DNA from: a virus
Virus record (IMG/VR): IMGVR_UViG_3300033148_004210
Span: 1 to 64,000 of that record
DNA length: 64,000 nucleotides
Strand: one strand, 5' to 3'
Part shown: positions 2,630 through 55,937 of the stretch, one piece after another
How positions within the stretch are numbered: the first letter of the stretch is position 1
Layout of the letters: the number at the start of each line of letters is the position of its first letter
Program-made: the position numbers and the translations under genes
Notes under the pieces: generated by a model
What the model saw: the letters and a program-made list of their open reading frames with translations, nothing else
What the model was told of the DNA's origin: nothing
Database searches by the model: none

Positions 2630-3589
2630 ATGACTCCTGATAAAAACATAGTATTAGAAGTTTCTAAGTTAGTAGGTGAGCCTATTAATAAGCAACTTCC
2701 AGTTCCAGTTGAAATTTCAGCTATCGCCGATACTTTTACAGCCGAACCAGGCGAAAAAGTTTGGAGATATACTACTTTTGATACTTCTCTAGATACAGTT
2801 TTAGCGGTTGATGCTAATGGTGTTATTACAGTTGTAAAGAGAACTCCCACAGGGGATGCAGAGCTTACGTTTGATGGATTAAATTCTAAGTTAGAGTATG
2901 TGTTGATAAATGATATTCTTTCTGAAACTGACAATACTTCGGTATTGGCAAGACGAAAAGAATCGATTACTCGTTCAATGGATAAGAAAGAGCTTTATGC
3001 TATCGTTACTGCTATTCTTAGCAAAACTGGAAGTTATCTTCCTGGCGTAGACCCTGAAGAGGTTACGATGACAGGTAATGACCTTTATGATGTTATTATA
3101 GCGTTGAAGCATAAGGTTGAAGATTATGGAGATGGTTTCGTGCTACTTTGCGGTAGTGCAGTAAAAGAAGCTATTGACACTTATGATAAGGATAAAGCTA
3201 GCACGTTTAATTATAGTGTTACTTTAAGTCAGAAACTTAAAGAACTTGGTATAGAGGTATTGAAGGTATTTGGTAGTGTTGAACTTACTGACGGTGGTGG
3301 AGAGACTCGAATTATGAACACCAATAAAATGGTGCTTATAGCGAAGAATTCCAGAATCGCTGAAGGTAAGCCGATTAAGTTTGTTCGAAGAAAGATTTCT
3401 GCTGAAATAGCGAAGTTGATGGGTGCAGATGTTGACAGTGCTCAAAGGGCACTTATTGTCAACCCGACTCCAGTTAATTCTGGTTCGGCTAACCTGCTTG
3501 CCTATGGGATATATGGCTACGAAAGTATGATTTTCACAATCACAAATCCGTTAGCTATTGCGTTTGCGGACTGTTCATCGATACTATAA
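2630..3589 (+). CDS. Major capsid protein (HK97-fold candidate)
   Basis: A 319-residue protein directly after the protease/scaffold gene and followed at once by a strong hairpin, the usual arrangement for the most highly expressed virion protein. The N-terminal part is beta-rich and carries VWRYTTFDTSLDTV. A helical centre (about 105-190) resembles the spine and A-domain of HK97-type shells, and the C-terminal part ends in a beta-rich segment. GAGGTAAATTAAA precedes the ATG. A small 6-bp hairpin (2530-2545) lies in the 101-base leader. Codon choice is somewhat more GC-rich than in neighbouring genes, which fits high expression. Assignment rests mainly on synteny and size. Confidence 0.75.
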   Translation: MTPDKNIVLEVSKLVGEPINKQLPVPVEISAIADTFTAEPGEKVWRYTTFDTSLDTVLAVDANGVITVVKRTPTGDAELTFDGLNSKLEYVLINDILSETDNTSVLARRKESITRSMDKKELYAIVTAILSKTGSYLPGVDPEEVTMTGNDLYDVIIALKHKVEDYGDGFVLLCGSAVKEAIDTYDKDKASTFNYSVTLSQKLKELGIEVLKVFGSVELTDGGGETRIMNTNKMVLIAKNSRIAEGKPIKFVRRKISAEIAKLMGADVDSAQRALIVNPTPVNSGSANLLAYGIYGYESMIFTITNPLAIAFADCSSIL

Positions 3590-3600
3590 TCGATAATTTT

Positions 3601-3630
3601 CTTAGGGGAAGCCTCAAAACTTCCCCTAAG
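3601..3630 (+). terminator. Hairpin downstream of the major capsid gene
   Basis: CTTAGGGGAAG at 3601-3611 pairs perfectly with CTTCCCCTAAG at 3620-3630 around an 8-base loop. This 11-bp stem starts 11 bases after the capsid stop codon. Only a weak T-rich tail follows (attct), so it may act as a partial terminator or as a 3' stability hairpin for capsid mRNA. Confidence 0.75.
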
Positions 3631-3644
3631 ATTCTAACAAAAGT

Positions 3645-4430
3645 ATGGTAAATATGAAAAAAAGAAAAATAACAAAAAAATATTTAGTAGAGCAATATAT
3701 AAAGAATAAAAAGAATTCTATTCAAATTGCTAAAAGTATAAAATGTTGCGATACTACAATAAGAAATTATCTTAAAAAATATAATATAAAAATAAGAACT
3801 TTATCAGAAGTTCATAGAGGATTAAAACATACATTTAAAACTCGACAAGAAATGAGTATTTCTCATAAGGGATTAAAACATACTGAAGCAACAAAAATCA
3901 AATTAAGTTTATTTCATAAAATATATGACAAAATTTTAACAAAACAATTTTTAATAAAAGAATATATAAAAAATAATAAATCTACTTTAAAAATAGCAAA
4001 GAAAATCGATTGTTCAGTAACAACAATTTGGAAATTTTTAAAGAAATATAATATTCCTGTAAGAAATTTTAGAGAAAGTAGTTGTTGGAAAGGGAAAAAG
4101 AATCCAGAACAGAGTAAAAGAATGAAAGGTAAGAAACATCCCAATTATATAGAAGGATTAGACAGAAAATATCCCTTAGAATTTGATAATCAATTAAAAC
4201 AACAAATTCGTAAACGAGACGATTATACTTGTCAAAACTGTAATATGACAGAAGAAGAACATATTATAGTTCATGGAAGAGTTTTAGATGTCCATCACAT
4301 TGATTATGATAAAGATAATTTAGCCCCAGAAAATTTAATAAGTTTATGTCAAAGTTGTAATATTAGAGCAAATTATAATAGAAAGTATTGGATAGAATAT
4401 TTTCAAACAAAAACAAAGGAAAAGGTATGA
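3645..4430 (+). CDS. HNH homing endonuclease with two HTH modules
   Basis: Free-standing homing endonuclease of 261 residues. Two copies of an HTH module occur (about residues 5-45 and 95-140), each with the pattern L(T/I)KQ(F/Y)L, IA(K), C, TTI and KKYNI. The C-terminal nuclease carries RDDYTCQNC, LDVHHIDYD, ENLISLCQSC and NRKYW, the HNH fold with zinc-binding cysteines. It probably cuts DNA at an intergenic site in related phages lacking it and spreads by repair. It sits between the capsid hairpin and the next gene, with which it shares an ATGA stop-start overlap. No intron or intein around it is evident. Confidence 0.9.
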   Translation: MVNMKKRKITKKYLVEQYIKNKKNSIQIAKSIKCCDTTIRNYLKKYNIKIRTLSEVHRGLKHTFKTRQEMSISHKGLKHTEATKIKLSLFHKIYDKILTKQFLIKEYIKNNKSTLKIAKKIDCSVTTIWKFLKKYNIPVRNFRESSCWKGKKNPEQSKRMKGKKHPNYIEGLDRKYPLEFDNQLKQQIRKRDDYTCQNCNMTEEEHIIVHGRVLDVHHIDYDKDNLAPENLISLCQSCNIRANYNRKYWIEYFQTKTKEKV

Positions 4431-4897
4431 TAATCTTCAAAAGCGGAAAAGTTTCAAAACAAGAAAAAGAAATTATCAATAACATTTTAATAGAATATAC
4501 TGATATTTGGAAGGATTGTTATATAACGAAAAATAATCTTCGTTTATTTCTCGCTGATAATAAAGAACTTCTTTATGAAGGATTGGTTAAGGGAGATAAA
4601 ATTGCTTTTGATGAAAATCAAGGGCTTATATTTATATGTGGATATTCAGATAAATTTCCTCGTAAGTATTTAAAAATTTTAGCTAAAAATGAAGATTCTG
4701 CAAATCGACTTTTAAAAATTTTGTCATGGAATATTAAAGATGATTTATATGCGAAAATGAAAAAATCGAATCCTATAATTAAAGTATTGGAAAGAAACGG
4801 TTTTAGATATATAAAAGATAGGGGAGCAGAAGCTCTTTTATTTAGAAAATATCTTCCGACAAGACCTATAAAACAAAAGGATAAGAATGAAGAATAA
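4427..4897 (+). CDS. Hypothetical protein, possible GNAT-like fold
   Basis: A 156-residue protein whose ATG overlaps the stop of the preceding endonuclease (ATGA), with AAGGAAAAGG just upstream; an in-frame ATG at 4388 lies inside the endonuclease and is less likely. The C-terminal third (NPIIKVLERNGFRYI then EALLFRKY) resembles the last strand-helix-strand of GNAT acetyltransferases, but no convincing acetyl-CoA P-loop is visible. It lies among head genes, so a head or connector role is possible. I do not recognise it firmly. Confidence 0.6.
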   Translation: MIIFKSGKVSKQEKEIINNILIEYTDIWKDCYITKNNLRLFLADNKELLYEGLVKGDKIAFDENQGLIFICGYSDKFPRKYLKILAKNEDSANRLLKILSWNIKDDLYAKMKKSNPIIKVLERNGFRYIKDRGAEALLFRKYLPTRPIKQKDKNEE

Positions 4898-46141: not shown

Positions 46142-47566
46142 TTATTCCTTATTTAAATTTATTATACCGATATTTTCTGGAATATCGTTAAAATGATGCA
46201 AACACATAATTAATTGGAAAGGCAATCCTTCAAAAACTTGTAATATATGCTGTAAATTATTAGTATCAAGATTCGCAAACCCTTCATCTGCAATTACGAC
46301 ACCAGTATCGTTATTTTGTAAAAGTAAAGCCAACTTAAATGCAATCTGAAGCATTAATTTTTGTCCACAAGAAAGTTCTTTATACTTGTAATCTATATTA
46401 TTTTTTCGTAATTTAATCCCAAATTTTCCTTTAGTATTTACATCAAAAGATACAGTGAAATTAATTTTTTGTAAAATAGAATTTATTATCGGTTCTAAAG
46501 TTTTAACCGTCTCTGTTAAATAATAAGAAGAAATATTATCCAATTCTTTAATAGCTTGTTTAACTATTTCTTCATCTTTATTAGTATATATAAATTCTTT
46601 CATTTTTAATCGAGATTCTAATTTAATTTTTAAATTTAATAAGACTTGTAATTTATTACTAATGTTTTCTATAATAGTCCTATGAGAAGCGATAAGGTCT
46701 TTCATTTCCGCTATCTCTGAAGTCTTAGTTGCTAAAGAAGTATTAATCTCCTTAACTTCTTTTTCTATATCTACAGTTAATCTTTTTTGAGTAGTTTGAG
46801 GAATAACCTGTTTACATACAAAACAAGTTCTGTCTTTAGTAACTTTATTTTGATTATACTTTATAGTCTTTTTCCTTTGTTCTAATTGTCCCATTTCTCT
46901 TTCGGTTTTACGAAAATCGTTTTCAAATTCTCTAACAGTTTTAATTAGTTCTAAATTTTGTTCATCTAATTCTACATATTTACTATTTATAAGTTGTAAT
47001 CGTTTTTCACTAGGATAATGAGTAGAAGCTTGAATCCTGTCTTTATTATAAAGTTCTCTATTTCGTTTTATCTCTAATAATTTAACCCTCATATTATTAA
47101 AAATCTCATCTGAACCTGCAAATATAATTCTCTTTAAAGCAACATTGCCTTGTTCTAATAAATTGCTTTCTTTAGCAGAATCTATAACTCTAAATTTTTG
47201 AAAATTCTCCCTAGACCCTATTAAATCAGTAATAAATCTATTGCCTTCTGCACCTGTATCAAATTTAACTGGTTTATTGTCTTTAATAATAGAAAGTTTA
47301 GTAGGAAAACTTCTTTTTACGATATAGTTAGAGTTATTATGTTTAAATTCGAGTTCTACAGAACAGGATTTGGATACTCCTTTTGTAGGTAAATCGCTTA
47401 ATAAAGGATGTGTCGTGTAGCCAAACAGGGCATAAAGCAGTGATTCTAAGGCTACAGTGGTCTTTCCTGACCCGTTAGCTCCCTGCACCAATGTCATAGG
47501 GTCAAATAGGAATTTAGCCCCTTTAAAACACTTAAAATTCGTTAAACGAACAGTCTTTATAATCAT
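46142..47566 (-). CDS. SbcC/Rad50-like (T4 gp46-like) recombination ATPase
   Basis: The 474-residue SMC-type ATPase has IIKTVRLTNFKCFKGAKFLF, Walker A QGANGSGKTTVALESLLYAL, a short coiled coil with a CFVCKQ zinc hook near residue 250, the signature LSCGQKLMLQIAFKLALLL and Walker B TGVVIADEGFANLD. With the nuclease at 48706 it forms the complex that resects DNA ends for recombination-dependent replication. The coils are much shorter than in cellular SbcC, as usual in phages. Confidence 0.85.
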   Translation of the reverse strand: MIIKTVRLTNFKCFKGAKFLFDPMTLVQGANGSGKTTVALESLLYALFGYTTHPLLSDLPTKGVSKSCSVELEFKHNNSNYIVKRSFPTKLSIIKDNKPVKFDTGAEGNRFITDLIGSRENFQKFRVIDSAKESNLLEQGNVALKRIIFAGSDEIFNNMRVKLLEIKRNRELYNKDRIQASTHYPSEKRLQLINSKYVELDEQNLELIKTVREFENDFRKTEREMGQLEQRKKTIKYNQNKVTKDRTCFVCKQVIPQTTQKRLTVDIEKEVKEINTSLATKTSEIAEMKDLIASHRTIIENISNKLQVLLNLKIKLESRLKMKEFIYTNKDEEIVKQAIKELDNISSYYLTETVKTLEPIINSILQKINFTVSFDVNTKGKFGIKLRKNNIDYKYKELSCGQKLMLQIAFKLALLLQNNDTGVVIADEGFANLDTNNLQHILQVFEGLPFQLIMCLHHFNDIPENIGIINLNKE

Positions 47567-48471
47567 TTTAAACTCCTAATAAATTCCACTAATGTTTTAA
47601 TAGGTTCACCAGTTGCTTTATTTTTCTTTTCATCGAAAGCAGATGAGGCAATATCGAGGTGAATCCAATTATTAGGGTATTTAATGAATTGTTTAAGAAA
47701 CATCCCTGCCATAATTGTGCCACACTTTTTCTTTGAAGCATTTTGTATTCTTTTCTTGTTAAAATCTTTTTGTAGATAATCCCAAAGTGGTAAACGCCAT
47801 GCTAATTCTCCAGTTTTCATACTTGCTTTTTTATATGCGTGAGTAAATTCTTTAGTTGGTGTCATAAAAGCGGTTGCCTTTTTTCCTAACGCATAAGCAC
47901 AAGCTCCAGTTAAAGTCGCTACTGTAATAATTATATCGTTTTTTGAAGCGTTTAAATTCGTAATCGCTTCAGCCAAAATTAATCGACCTTCGGCATCTGT
48001 ATTCGTTATTTCAACTTCTTTAGTTCCTATTTTAATATAATCGCCAGGAATAATTCCATTAGGAATAAAATTTGTAGCTACAGGACAATAAGCAATTATA
48101 TTATCATTATCAAAATAAGAAGAAACTCCAAAAGCTACTGCCATCCCAGCCATATCTGCTTTCATTCCTAACATTTTAGTTTTTAAATCATATCCTCCTG
48201 CATCGAAAAGAATTCCCTTACCTACAATATAAATATTTCTCTTCTTTTTATCAATAGTGTTCATTAAAACAGAAGAAATTATTTTGGCATTTTCATGTTG
48301 ATTAGACATTAATTTAATAGGAGATTTAGAAGAAGTTTCGTTAAGTCCTAAACAAAAAAGAGAATACGCTTTTAATAATTTATCTTGATAATTATCAAGA
48401 TTTAATTTATTATAAGGCATATCAATTAATTTTTTACAAGCATTAATATAATAATCGAGTTTATTCTTCAT
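47563..48471 (-). CDS. M17 leucyl aminopeptidase, catalytic domain only
   Basis: The 302-residue protein has the M17 metal and catalytic motifs: IVGKGILFDAGGYDLK (Lys, Asp), MLGMKADMAGMAVAFG (Asp), ITNTDAEGRLILAEAI (Asp, Glu, Arg). The end (GTIMAGMFLKQFI, WIHLDIAS) also fits. Cellular enzymes have about 480-500 residues with an N-terminal regulatory domain, which is missing here. It lies between SbcC-like and SbcD-like genes with 4-base overlaps. It probably trims peptides in the infected cell; its place in a recombination operon is unexplained. Confidence 0.82.
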   Translation of the reverse strand: MKNKLDYYINACKKLIDMPYNKLNLDNYQDKLLKAYSLFCLGLNETSSKSPIKLMSNQHENAKIISSVLMNTIDKKKRNIYIVGKGILFDAGGYDLKTKMLGMKADMAGMAVAFGVSSYFDNDNIIAYCPVATNFIPNGIIPGDYIKIGTKEVEITNTDAEGRLILAEAITNLNASKNDIIITVATLTGACAYALGKKATAFMTPTKEFTHAYKKASMKTGELAWRLPLWDYLQKDFNKKRIQNASKKKCGTIMAGMFLKQFIKYPNNWIHLDIASSAFDEKKNKATGEPIKTLVEFIRSLK

Positions 48472-52450: not shown

Positions 52451-55400
52451 TTATTCCTCCTTTAAATCTTTTATTTTAGGGTAAGGTTGTTCAGGAAATT
52501 TTTTATACCAATCTCTTTTTTCTTTTTTATTACCTAGACACATTAAATAAACATGTTTTTTCAAAGCGGATTTTATCTCTAATCTATCTCCGTAAATTTG
52601 TTCTAAATTTTTCTTAGATGTGCTTCCATGTTTAGCATTTAAATTTCTTGTATGCACTTCTTTCCCATCAATAAAAATTCTTCTTTCTGGTAATAATCTC
52701 CTTTGAACACCAACATATCTCCAATTAGTTGCTTGATAAATATAACCAATATGTCCATGATTCGGGTCAGCATAAGAAATTAAATATTTAAATTCTGGTC
52801 TATTTTGTCTAATATATTTGAAAGATTGACCTATACAATAACTTTCTATATTTTTAGGTAATCCGTCTTTACTAAATAATCTGATTAATTCTACACAATT
52901 TTCTCTATCTATCTGTAACCATTCAGTAACTCTTCTTCCTATAGGGCATCCATAGACAACAGCAGTAACTAATTCTTTATTATAATAGAATCCTAAAGCC
53001 AGTTTAACAGATGAAGCAATGGTGTGGGAATAATGATTTTTTATTATGTATTTTTTAGCTTCTCGAAAATCTATTTTTTTTATTTCTAAATCTTTTAATT
53101 CAAAATCCAATTCTTTTATTTGTTTTTTCTCTTTTTGAATTCTTTGATATTCTTGATTTACAATGTCTATATTTGGAGCGAGGTTAGAGACTTGCACTCT
53201 ACTCTCCGAACTGGAAGTTCGGCATGTCTTTTTCGACACTTCCCTCGCAAACTGTTTTTCGTTTTTAAGTTTATTAATATATTCTGCCACTTCGTCTTTA
53301 GTTTCTATTCCTATAATTTCCTTAATATTCCACCCCATTGCCTCAAATATAGTTTGGAGTTTCATTAAAATATTACGATTCTTCATAGTTTCCCAATCTA
53401 CTTTGTTTTTATCCACATGTCCGTATGTTTCTTCATCAAATGCCATCACATTTTTTAATTTGCCTTTAGTTGTAATAGAATGTGTAGTTACTTTCCCTTT
53501 GGTAATTAAATGTTCGATTAATTCTTCTTGTTTAATTTTATCCATATTTTTTACTAAAACTTTTTGTCCAAAATGTAATTCCCATTCTTTCTTTAATTTA
53601 GAAGAAGTTAATTTACCTCCATCATACCAAAGAATATTCTTTTTATTCTGCTCATATTCATCTGAATTTACATAAATATAATAAAATAATTCTCCTACTT
53701 TTTTCTTAAAAGAAGGAACTAATTCTTGAGCATATTTTGAAGCCCGAACAAAGATTGGCATGTTTTTATATTCATCTATAGGTTTGCCAATTTTACAGGG
53801 AAAAGCGATATTTTGCAGTGGTTGATTTCTTATTTCTTTAATTTGATTTTTAATCCATACAAAAATAGATTCTTTGGATTCTTTATCGAGTATTTTATCT
53901 ATAAGAGTTCGTTGGAATTTTTTCATAAATACAGTGCTATCTTTTCTTTTTGCTTCTACTCCTTTAACTTCTTCTTCTAATCCTTTGTCTGTTCGAACAT
54001 AACCAAGATACCTACACTTTGTTAATATCAAAATTTTCTCATAATATCCTTTATATTCGAATTCGTTGACAATATTTTCTTTACCATATTTATCCTTAGC
54101 CCATTTTTTTACTAAACTATTCAAAAGATTGGAAATATCATCAGTATTGTTGTTTATCATAACCCCATCGGTGTCCACATATATAACTTCGTAACCCTTT
54201 GATTTTAAAGCAGTTATGACATAATGTAAAAGGTCTCGAACTAAAAAAGTAGTCGCAGATGCAACTTGTTTATTATAAAGTCTAAAAAATCTATTCCCAA
54301 ATACTCCATATGCACTATTCACAACTGTTTTAACTGCATCATATCTTTTTTTTATATCTTTATAATGTCCACTATTTATTGGACATTTTGATAAAGCGGA
54401 CTTAATTTGATTTTTCAAAGTTATCAACTTCTTGACAACTGTTGGAAGTAACGCATTTGAATTTTGTGCGAAATGGCTATTTTCTATAGGAAGTATGTCA
54501 AAACCATCTGCTATCAATCCTTGTTTATCAGATTTTCTTATATTAGCAGGGTCTAAACAAAAATCTATAATCATTGAGGGGTAGCAAGAACTAAGGTCAT
54601 AGATTCCAGTTCCTTCAGTAAACGCTCCAGTTTTAAACGCTTCTCTAAATGCTCCAGCAAAATCTTCTTTTTCTGATAATGTTCCTCTCATTTCGTCAGG
54701 TTTCATTGGTAAAGCTACTTTTTGATTTTTAGCTTCTTGTAATAAAAGCATATCCAATACTCTACTATTCCACAAAAGGTCTTCCCATTCTATTTTCGAC
54801 ATTCTTCTAATTTCATCAAAATAAGAAATAATTTTATGTTTCTTTTCTAACTCAACTAATATCTTAACATCGTCTATATTTCTTTCTTTTGTTTCAGGAG
54901 AAAGTTTAGAAAAATCTAACTTCATATGCTTCTTGCCACGACCTAAATGTTTTTTAGCAATATAATCTAGAGAATAGGCTTGCTCTCTATTTAAAGTTAC
55001 CTTTTTAAACCAAGAAAGATAATCTATAATACTTATACCAGCAGGGTAATAAATTTCTCCGTCTCCATAACGAGTTTGTCCAATAGGACTAATTGATTCG
55101 GCAAAATCTGGATAACGATTACATAAATACGGAAAATCGAATCTTGTAAAATTCCAACCCAATAATATATCAAATTTCTCTTGTTTAAGATACTCTATAA
55201 AAGAATCTATCATTTTGTATTCTGTTTCATAATCTTCGAGATAAAATGTTTTAATTTTCTCACTAAAAGAATTCGAAACACTAATACAACTAACAGGTTT
55301 ATTTGCTTTTTTTACATCAGGCAATTCATCCGATAATATTTCTATATCTATAAAGGAATATTTAATAGGACATTTATCTAATTTATCAATAGCATCAATC

Positions 55401-55651
55401 ATATATCTTTGACAAAATCTTATATCTCCTTCATACGATTTATCACTTCTTTGTTTACGAATGTCGGAAGGCTTGCATATAAATATTTTTCTTAAAGGAG
55501 TTCCATCGAATCCTTTAAATTTACCGTTAATATCGTGTTCGTATAGATAATGAAAGAAATTATTAACTTTTTTAATTTCCTGTTGTCCTTCTTTATTACG
55601 AAGGAAAAGATATATTTCACGATATTTATTATAAATATTAACTAACTTCAT
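52451..55651 (-). CDS. Family B DNA polymerase fused to a Mom-like GNAT domain
   Basis: In this 1066-residue protein, residues about 1-800 are a family B polymerase. The exonuclease has FIDIEIL, GWNFTRFDFPY and NIDDVKILVELE; the polymerase has GIYDLSSCYPSMI (motif A), KTVVNSAYGVFGN (motif B) and IYVDTDGVM (motif C). Residues about 855-1050 resemble the Mom family of DNA-modifying GNAT proteins: IKNHYSHTI, EWLQIDRENCVELIRLF, ISYADPNHGHIGYIYQATNW. Mu Mom modifies adenine. Between them (802-826) the reading frame passes through a tRNA-like sequence. A Mom-type domain on the replicative polymerase is unexpected. Confidence 0.82.
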   Translation of the reverse strand: MKLVNIYNKYREIYLFLRNKEGQQEIKKVNNFFHYLYEHDINGKFKGFDGTPLRKIFICKPSDIRKQRSDKSYEGDIRFCQRYMIDAIDKLDKCPIKYSFIDIEILSDELPDVKKANKPVSCISVSNSFSEKIKTFYLEDYETEYKMIDSFIEYLKQEKFDILLGWNFTRFDFPYLCNRYPDFAESISPIGQTRYGDGEIYYPAGISIIDYLSWFKKVTLNREQAYSLDYIAKKHLGRGKKHMKLDFSKLSPETKERNIDDVKILVELEKKHKIISYFDEIRRMSKIEWEDLLWNSRVLDMLLLQEAKNQKVALPMKPDEMRGTLSEKEDFAGAFREAFKTGAFTEGTGIYDLSSCYPSMIIDFCLDPANIRKSDKQGLIADGFDILPIENSHFAQNSNALLPTVVKKLITLKNQIKSALSKCPINSGHYKDIKKRYDAVKTVVNSAYGVFGNRFFRLYNKQVASATTFLVRDLLHYVITALKSKGYEVIYVDTDGVMINNNTDDISNLLNSLVKKWAKDKYGKENIVNEFEYKGYYEKILILTKCRYLGYVRTDKGLEEEVKGVEAKRKDSTVFMKKFQRTLIDKILDKESKESIFVWIKNQIKEIRNQPLQNIAFPCKIGKPIDEYKNMPIFVRASKYAQELVPSFKKKVGELFYYIYVNSDEYEQNKKNILWYDGGKLTSSKLKKEWELHFGQKVLVKNMDKIKQEELIEHLITKGKVTTHSITTKGKLKNVMAFDEETYGHVDKNKVDWETMKNRNILMKLQTIFEAMGWNIKEIIGIETKDEVAEYINKLKNEKQFAREVSKKTCRTSSSESRVQVSNLAPNIDIVNQEYQRIQKEKKQIKELDFELKDLEIKKIDFREAKKYIIKNHYSHTIASSVKLALGFYYNKELVTAVVYGCPIGRRVTEWLQIDRENCVELIRLFSKDGLPKNIESYCIGQSFKYIRQNRPEFKYLISYADPNHGHIGYIYQATNWRYVGVQRRLLPERRIFIDGKEVHTRNLNAKHGSTSKKNLEQIYGDRLEIKSALKKHVYLMCLGNKKEKRDWYKKFPEQPYPKIKDLKEE
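53174..53248 (-). tRNA. tRNA-Gly(UCC)-like cloverleaf inside the polymerase ORF (degenerate)
   Basis: On the minus strand, GCGAGGG (53248-53242) pairs over 6 bp with ACCTCGC near 53184-53178, followed by T and CCA (53177-53174). Inside are a D-like stem GTGT/ACAT, a perfect anticodon arm CCGAA-CTTCCAG-TTCGG (U33, anticodon TCC, A37), a 4-base variable region and a perfect T stem TAGAG/CTCTA with loop TGCAAGT. U73 and CCA are usual for tRNA-Gly. The D loop lacks GG and T55 is G. Local GC is high. It could be a relic, a mimic or a minimal tRNA. Confidence 0.55.
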
Positions 55652-55937
55652 TATGTAATTCCTTCCAAATTTTAACTATAACATCTCCATGACAAGCTTT
55701 CGGTTTACAATAGCATCCAAGTATTATATTTTTTGGCATATCGTCCAATAATTTTCTCCATACACTATAAGGTTCTAAAATGCCAGGTTCAGATATTTTT
55801 TTCCTTAACCAATTCTCATATTTTGCAATTACTTCTTCTCTTGTTCCATCTTTTCCTATTACAAAAGGATTTCCAAAAGGACTACCTCTTCCTATATAAA
55901 AGTCATATTTTTCTTTTCTTAAATTAACGACTCTCAT
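55638..55937 (-). CDS. DUF4326 family protein
   Basis: The 99-residue protein matches DUF4326: VVNLRKEKYDFYIGRGSPFG, NPFVIGKDGTREEVIAKYE, and IILGCYCKPKACHGDVIVK. The conserved Cys and His suggest a metal site. The family is common in phages and has no proven function. It overlaps the polymerase start by 14 bases, so the two are probably co-translated. Confidence 0.78.
   Translation of the reverse strand: MRVVNLRKEKYDFYIGRGSPFGNPFVIGKDGTREEVIAKYENWLRKKISEPGILEPYSVWRKLLDDMPKNIILGCYCKPKACHGDVIVKIWKELHNEVS

Follow-up and report, generated by a model that had tools for sequence, protein, structure and literature searches.

A tRNA-Gly-like element nested in phage mom genes as a candidate glycine donor for Mom DNA modification

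Why would a phage carry a tRNA-like cloverleaf that is translated as part of a protein? The question is raised by the window, i.e., the whole stretch of 64,000 nucleotides of viral DNA analysed here (IMG/VR record IMGVR_UViG_3300033148_004210, positions 1 to 64,000), in which a tRNA-Gly(UCC)-like element lies in frame within a single open reading frame (ORF) that also encodes a B-family DNA polymerase and a Mom domain. The best explanation, with a probability of about 0.7, is that the element acts as a dedicated, non-decoding tRNA-Gly for the Mom protein of the same transcript.

The element and its reading frame

The features of the locus are as follows:

52451–55651, minus strand: single ORF of 1066 amino acids, comprising B-family DNA polymerase, tRNA-like element and Mom
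53636–55348, minus strand: B-family polymerase domains PF03104 and PF00136 (Pfam, residues 102–672)
52475–53092, minus strand: Mom domain PF25680 (Pfam, residues 854–1059), predicted GNAT fold, best solved match Mu Mom (8BV8)
53174–53248, minus strand: tRNA-Gly(UCC)-like element, 75 nt, CCA encoded, equal to ORF residues 802–826
53243–53248, minus strand: acceptor stem, 5' strand GCGAGG, 6 bp, with G1-C72, C2-G71 and G3-C70 present; position 7-66 is G-A
53224–53239, minus strand: D arm GTGTC-GAAAAA-GACAT, loop without GG
53206–53222, minus strand: anticodon arm CCGAA-CTTCCAG-TTCGG, TCC at 53215–53213, U33 present
53185–53201, minus strand: T arm TAGAG-TGCAAGT-CTCTA, G replacing U55 in the loop
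53174–53183, minus strand: acceptor 3' strand CCTCGC, discriminator U73 and CCA (from sequence and fold)

Read on the minus strand from 53248 to 53174, the element is GCGAGGGAAGTGTCGAAAAAGACATGCCGAACTTCCAGTTCGGAGAGTAGAGTGCAAGTCTCTAACCTCGCTCCA, and its arms are laid out as GCGAGGG AA GTGTC-GAAAAA-GACAT G CCGAA-CTTCCAG-TTCGG AGAG TAGAG-TGCAAGT-CTCTA A CCTCGC T CCA. The 6-bp acceptor, anticodon and T stems, U33, UCC anticodon, U73 and encoded CCA described by an earlier sequence-only reading are all present in the sequence. The cloverleaf is the minimum-energy fold, at −28.2 kcal/mol compared with −17.5 ± 3.2 kcal/mol for shuffled sequences (z −3.3; 1 of 200 shuffles as good), and its four arms persist when the element is folded within 161 bases of context. 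Scoring with tRNA finders, which the same reading had proposed, agrees less well with this fold: ARAGORN misses the element, and so does Rfam at its gathering score of 29, the tRNA model giving just below that, 28.7 bits (E 2.6e-4, 221 bases searched). The family covariance model gives 82 bits, the window itself being one of the model's 11 training sequences, and has its sole match here in the 101.6-kb record; no other tRNA was found in that record beside the element. Among the features of a decoding tRNA-Gly, the acceptor, anticodon and T stems and the 3' CCA are present, while the elbow bases G18, G19 and U55 are lacking (D loop GAAAAA, T loop TGCAAGT) and the tRNA finders do not accept the element at their cut-offs.

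The Mom domain matches family PF25680, whose prototype is Mu Mom (8BV8), by both sequence and fold. It covers profile positions 1–202 of 202 with 153 bits against a curated cut-off of 27.1 (8.6e-45), and it matches Mu Mom by sequence with an E-value of 7e-39. The predicted structure of the domain has a pLDDT of 90, and a fold search with this model gave 8BV8 with Z 20.2, rmsd 3.7 and 184 aligned residues, the next entry having Z 12.5. Ordinary CoA-dependent GNATs rank after Mu Mom. Among the GNATs listed in this search, neither a FemX-like enzyme nor a Gly-tRNA-acetylating toxin was conspicuous, a result that has no excluding force.

A relative found by a Mom-alignment search, L009, is 56% identical and again has an in-frame cloverleaf preceding Mom, in two tandem tRNA-Mom units behind a B-family polymerase ORF. 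Three further relatives (L096, L097 and L098) have the same gene order, with one tRNA-Mom unit seen. In all four, the polymerase ORF is closed by a stop of its own, and another ORF (MDLSKL...) begins just upstream of the tRNA-like element, whereas the window lacks both this stop and the spacer that precedes MDLSKL in the relatives, leaving one polymerase–tRNA–Mom ORF. By this comparison, the polymerase gene is fused upstream of the tRNA-mom gene in the window phage. It had been proposed that polymerase, tRNA and mom were once separate genes joined by lost stop codons; this holds for the polymerase but not for the tRNA and mom, between which no stop was lost in this phage alone, because the relatives and most other phages also have the tRNA-like element inside the mom ORF. 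Similarly, the element lies between the polymerase and Mom domains, as had been stated, but not exactly at a domain border.

In Enterococcus phage PMBT2 (L436, 1–1734), a B-family polymerase is directly followed by mom as a separate gene, in the same order as in the window. The tandem units of L009 (1687–3675, same as L089) have identical cloverleaf segments, strongly diverged Mom domains and repeated shared tails, a pattern that suggests either duplication with homogenised ends or cassette exchange. The window also encodes, on the minus strand, a DUF4326 protein overlapping the start of the polymerase–Mom ORF (55638–55937) and a virus-encoded cytosol aminopeptidase (Peptidase_M17, 47563–48471), which is unusual for a phage.

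Selection on the RNA and association with mom

In the relatives with the same gene order, the loops are conserved (GAAAAA, CTTCCAG and TGCAAGT) and the stems change jointly. Between the window and L009, 17 of the 75 bases differ, of which 14 lie in stems and all 14 retain pairing, with six pairs changed on both sides; the encoded residues differ at 10 of 25 positions. Pairing is likewise retained at 8/8 stem changes in the comparison with L097 and at 7/8 with L096. The covariation does not arise from a search for stems, because L096–L098 came from a loops-only pattern, CTTCCAG-N13-GTGCAAGTC, which fixes no stem beyond one pair and is nearly stem-blind. The group A comparison is thus the clean test of pairing, whereas a search by model or by acceptor complementarity favours elements that pair. 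The RNA is under selection, with no visible sign of it in the encoded peptide.

It is unlikely that the translated tRNA segment has a conserved function as a peptide, as its residues change freely where the stems covary. It is scarcely credible that the element is a product of chance or the decaying relic of a tRNA gene. The silence of ARAGORN and the Rfam score just below gathering would fit such an origin, and the D loop without GG had been taken as a sign of a relic, but the absence of GG is common to most of the family, compensatory stem changes with conserved loops, seen in elements found nearly stem-blind, rule out this origin, and over 180 distinct relatives of the element occur in the corresponding place. 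With scores above background and pairing conserved in relatives, the element stands. In other searches, a single-sequence pattern scan with the whole tRNA-Mom stretch found no close relatives, an exact T-arm pattern gave no matches, and near DNA matches in phages were chance matches only, mostly in A-rich flanks.

On the evidence of the loci collected, this RNA family is linked to mom. Counted as distinct sequences, which are not phylogenetically independent, and with a Mom profile built from loci of this analysis (Pfam confirmed PF25680 on examples), 17 of the 22 contigs found by the loop pattern have the cloverleaf and 16 of these 17 have a Mom gene, compared with 0 of 5 contigs without the cloverleaf; with a T-arm/acceptor pattern, 99 of 103 distinct elements in IMG/VR have mom on the same strand, usually touching, and in a search of one genome per bacterial or archaeal species, Mom is present in the examined stretch at 25 of 35 loci, several of the others being at the edge of the stretch or in ParB-terminase neighbourhoods. 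Neither pattern contains a Mom criterion. Conversely, when 80 loci collected by the Mom protein alone were searched with a covariance model built from 11 examples, the element was found at E < 0.01 in 56 and in 64 counting weaker matches, in which the T arm and the place are the same. In these loci, the element invariably shares the strand of mom and lies at the 3' end of the gene, and the matches elsewhere all have E ≥ 2.9. No element was found near many other mom genes, namely 79 close, mostly marine relatives and those of several isolates, among them Mu, JD024 and PAN70. When 132 Mom domains were placed in a tree, the genes that bear the element formed several separated groups, two of which contain the 3'-side elements.

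The exception among the 17 contigs is L107, in which a phage protein with DAM-like and GNAT domains, resembling a DNA modification enzyme, takes the place of Mom. Its element (4756–4830, minus strand) lies beside this DAM-like-phage1 and GNAT-phage-like protein (3069–4859, minus strand) and a ParB-like gene. The protein may be a second glycine-using DNA modifier; a search for relatives of its GNAT domain returned L107 alone, so one locus underlies any association of the element with another class of enzyme. In Enterococcus phage phiEf11 (L006, 2113–2260), Mom belongs to a clade bearing 3'-side elements, yet none is detectable, an apparent loss. In a Moranbacteria genome (L206, 1195–1269) and a viral contig (L239), the same type of element lies before a small-terminase-like ORF, with Mom not adjacent.

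Glycine identity and loss of decoding features

It has been reported that the identity set of the bacterial glycyl-tRNA synthetase consists of U73, G1-C72, C2-G71, G3-C70, C35 and C36 (PMC9976931), and the window element carries this set completely. U73 is found in 64/64 elements parsed from the protein-found and loop-found sets, on which this count and that of the T-stem bulge described below are based, the T-arm pattern scans fixing both by design. Among 98 distinct elements, G1-C72 is present in all 98, C2-G71 in 97 and G3-C70 in 83, position 3-70 not being G-C in three members of group A. The anticodon is NCC across the family, nearly always UCC or ACC, where the reading script forces CC into the loop and an unforced parse gave NCC in most elements, the rest being read by eye. 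ARAGORN calls tRNA-Gly (tcc or acc) at several family elements and a tRNA with a 6-base anticodon loop at others, and the Rfam tRNA gathering score is reached by 10 family elements.

Meanwhile, features needed for decoding have been lost. The GG of the D loop is missing in most of the family, and its loss goes with the loss of U55 (Fisher p 1e-4). Outside group A, L094 and L107, the T stem of every element carries a bulged A, placed between pairs 51-63 and 50-64, and the pairs around it covary. The D arm is essentially gone in L190, L147 and L176, and some elements have 6-nt anticodon loops. EF-Tu binding has been reported to depend on pairs of the T stem, among them 49-65 and 51-63; the staphylococcal cell-wall tRNA-Gly species are likewise reported to be without GG18-19 and to contain features of weak EF-Tu binding (PMC4052509). 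Judged by these features, the elements look unfit for translation. In the cultured Psychrobacter phage vB_PmaS_Y8A (L190, 2150–2290), two tandem D-arm-poor elements occupy the gap that the annotation leaves between mom and the small terminase gene.

The element shares the cloverleaf, the encoded CCA and the glycine identity with phage decoding tRNAs, but unlike these it lies outside tRNA clusters, inside mom, and its decoding features are lost. That it is an ordinary decoding tRNA-Gly whose gene overlaps mom by happenstance is very unlikely: phages often carry tRNAs, and L178/L179 have two canonical tRNA-Gly(UCC) in a row just after mom, but most copies are without the D-loop GG and U55, have the T-stem bulge or are without the D arm, many have the anticodon ACC or a 6-nt loop, and no tRNA accompanies the element in the window's record. 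A decoy or spare tRNA-Gly directed against host defence, such as anticodon nucleases or Gly-tRNA-acetylating GNAT toxins, would make Mom and the tRNA co-travelling counter-defence genes. Both are counter-defence in a wide sense, and a Gly-tRNA-acetylating toxin reads U73 and G71 (PMC9976931), which are kept here; however, the nesting in mom, the near-exclusive link with mom (99/103) and the absence of other partners are left unexplained, and we consider this role quite improbable.

Nesting in mom and the proposed donor role

The element sits inside the mom coding region, just within the start or stop codon. Among 36 elements on the 5' side, 35 leave the mom frame open over their whole length (5 and 5 for the other frames), and a start codon lies at most 27 nt upstream in 32. 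Among 61 elements on the 3' side, the mom frame is open through 50 (28 and 20 for the other frames), and where it is open, the stop codon follows within 45 nt beyond the element in 96%. In the protein-found set, the element is read through in 56 of 68 cases, and free-standing or tandem copies after the mom stop are seen in L178 and L190. With the element at the edge of the coding region, excision would remove the start or stop codon. The stretches read from the window and L096–L098 show no in-frame ATG downstream of the element and before the Mom domain, so translation of uncut RNA is the simplest source of Mom.

The nesting is compatible with a cis-acting role as well, in which glycyl-tRNA synthetase would bind, or RNase P would cut, a tRNA mimic in the mom mRNA. 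The mimic would thereby set the amount of Mom and would never be a donor. Mom expression is under tight control in Mu, a tRNA-like operator controls the expression of thrS in E. coli, and such control would suit an element that lies at either end of the mom coding region and, in most phages, is translated with it. This role is nevertheless unlikely, because the position varies between the 5' and 3' ends, free-standing and tandem copies occur after the mom stop (L178 and L190), the encoded CCA and U73 are kept although a protein-binding hairpin would not need them, and the joint loss of U55 and GG is a pattern known from non-decoding donors. Like thrS-type mRNA operators and viral tRNA-like structures, the element is a tRNA mimic within a longer RNA, but unlike them it has a full CCA cloverleaf with an identity set, an unfixed position and free tandem copies.

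Which molecule serves as the donor for Mom has been uncertain for decades. The Mom base, N6-carbamoylmethyl-adenine, is adenine plus C2H3NO, which has the composition and mass of one glycyl unit, and this base would result if glycyl were transferred to N6 and a Smiles-type rearrangement then took place. A review describes the Mom transfer as proceeding from an acyl-CoA and names glycyl-CoA as a possible donor (PMC7824862). For a dedicated tRNA-Gly serving Mom, excision from the mRNA, which the sequence-only reading had offered as one explanation, is the reading we favour. Host nucleases would cut the element from some transcripts, RNase P acting at the 5' end and 3' processing at the encoded CCA, and the released element would be charged by the host glycyl-tRNA synthetase, the altered elbow and T stem keeping it off EF-Tu and the ribosome. 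Mom would then move the glycyl group to the adenine N6 of the phage DNA, where the N6-glycyl adenine would rearrange to N6-carbamoylmethyl-adenine. With the tRNA in the coding region beside its start or stop codon, any one transcript would yield either Mom or the tRNA, which may provide a built-in balance. Since many mom genes, including that of Mu, are without the element, Mom would need host Gly-tRNA there; Mu-type Mom enzymes would thus use host Gly-tRNA, while phages with the element would supply their own, EF-Tu-free. We regard as probable the wider proposal of an aminoacyl-tRNA-dependent DNA modification, in which a translation-incompetent glycyl-tRNA lies inside the gene of the enzyme that consumes it, release of the tRNA and synthesis of the enzyme are mutually exclusive for each transcript, and Mu-type Moms in general use Gly-tRNA.

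Against a donor role of the element, GNAT enzymes usually take acyl-CoA, ordinary CoA-dependent GNATs come after Mu Mom in the fold search, many mom genes are without the element, and some identity positions vary within the family. Unlike the window, Mu mom has no tRNA-like element nearby, and the Mom donor has been taken to be an acyl-CoA. The closest known counterparts of the proposed donor are the non-proteinogenic tRNA-Gly species of Staphylococcus, which serve FemXAB as cell-wall donors; these are likewise tRNA-Gly with the D-loop GG replaced, and the element would, like them, be expected to escape EF-Tu and give its glycine to a non-ribosomal transferase. Unlike them, the element is phage-borne and nested in frame in the gene of its presumed user, its T stem is bulged (outside group A), and its target would be DNA. 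No published link between Mom and glycyl-tRNA was found in the open-access literature; bioRxiv and most subscription journals were outside this search, so an earlier report is possible.

To our knowledge, no tRNA-dependent DNA base modification was known before. If the donor role is true, this would be the first, and DNA would join peptidoglycan, lipids and proteins as targets of aminoacyl-tRNA transferases. The question of the Mom donor becomes directly testable, the prediction being glycyl-tRNA. Whether or not the donor role holds, the in-frame nesting of a large tRNA family within protein-coding sequence is an unusual way to arrange a genome, and one that escapes standard tRNA finders and gene callers; the pairing of element and Mom, which is beyond the reading of a single sequence, emerges only by comparison across many phages. 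Its recurrence in well over a hundred other phages suggests that these phages may decorate their DNA with glycine from a dedicated tRNA.
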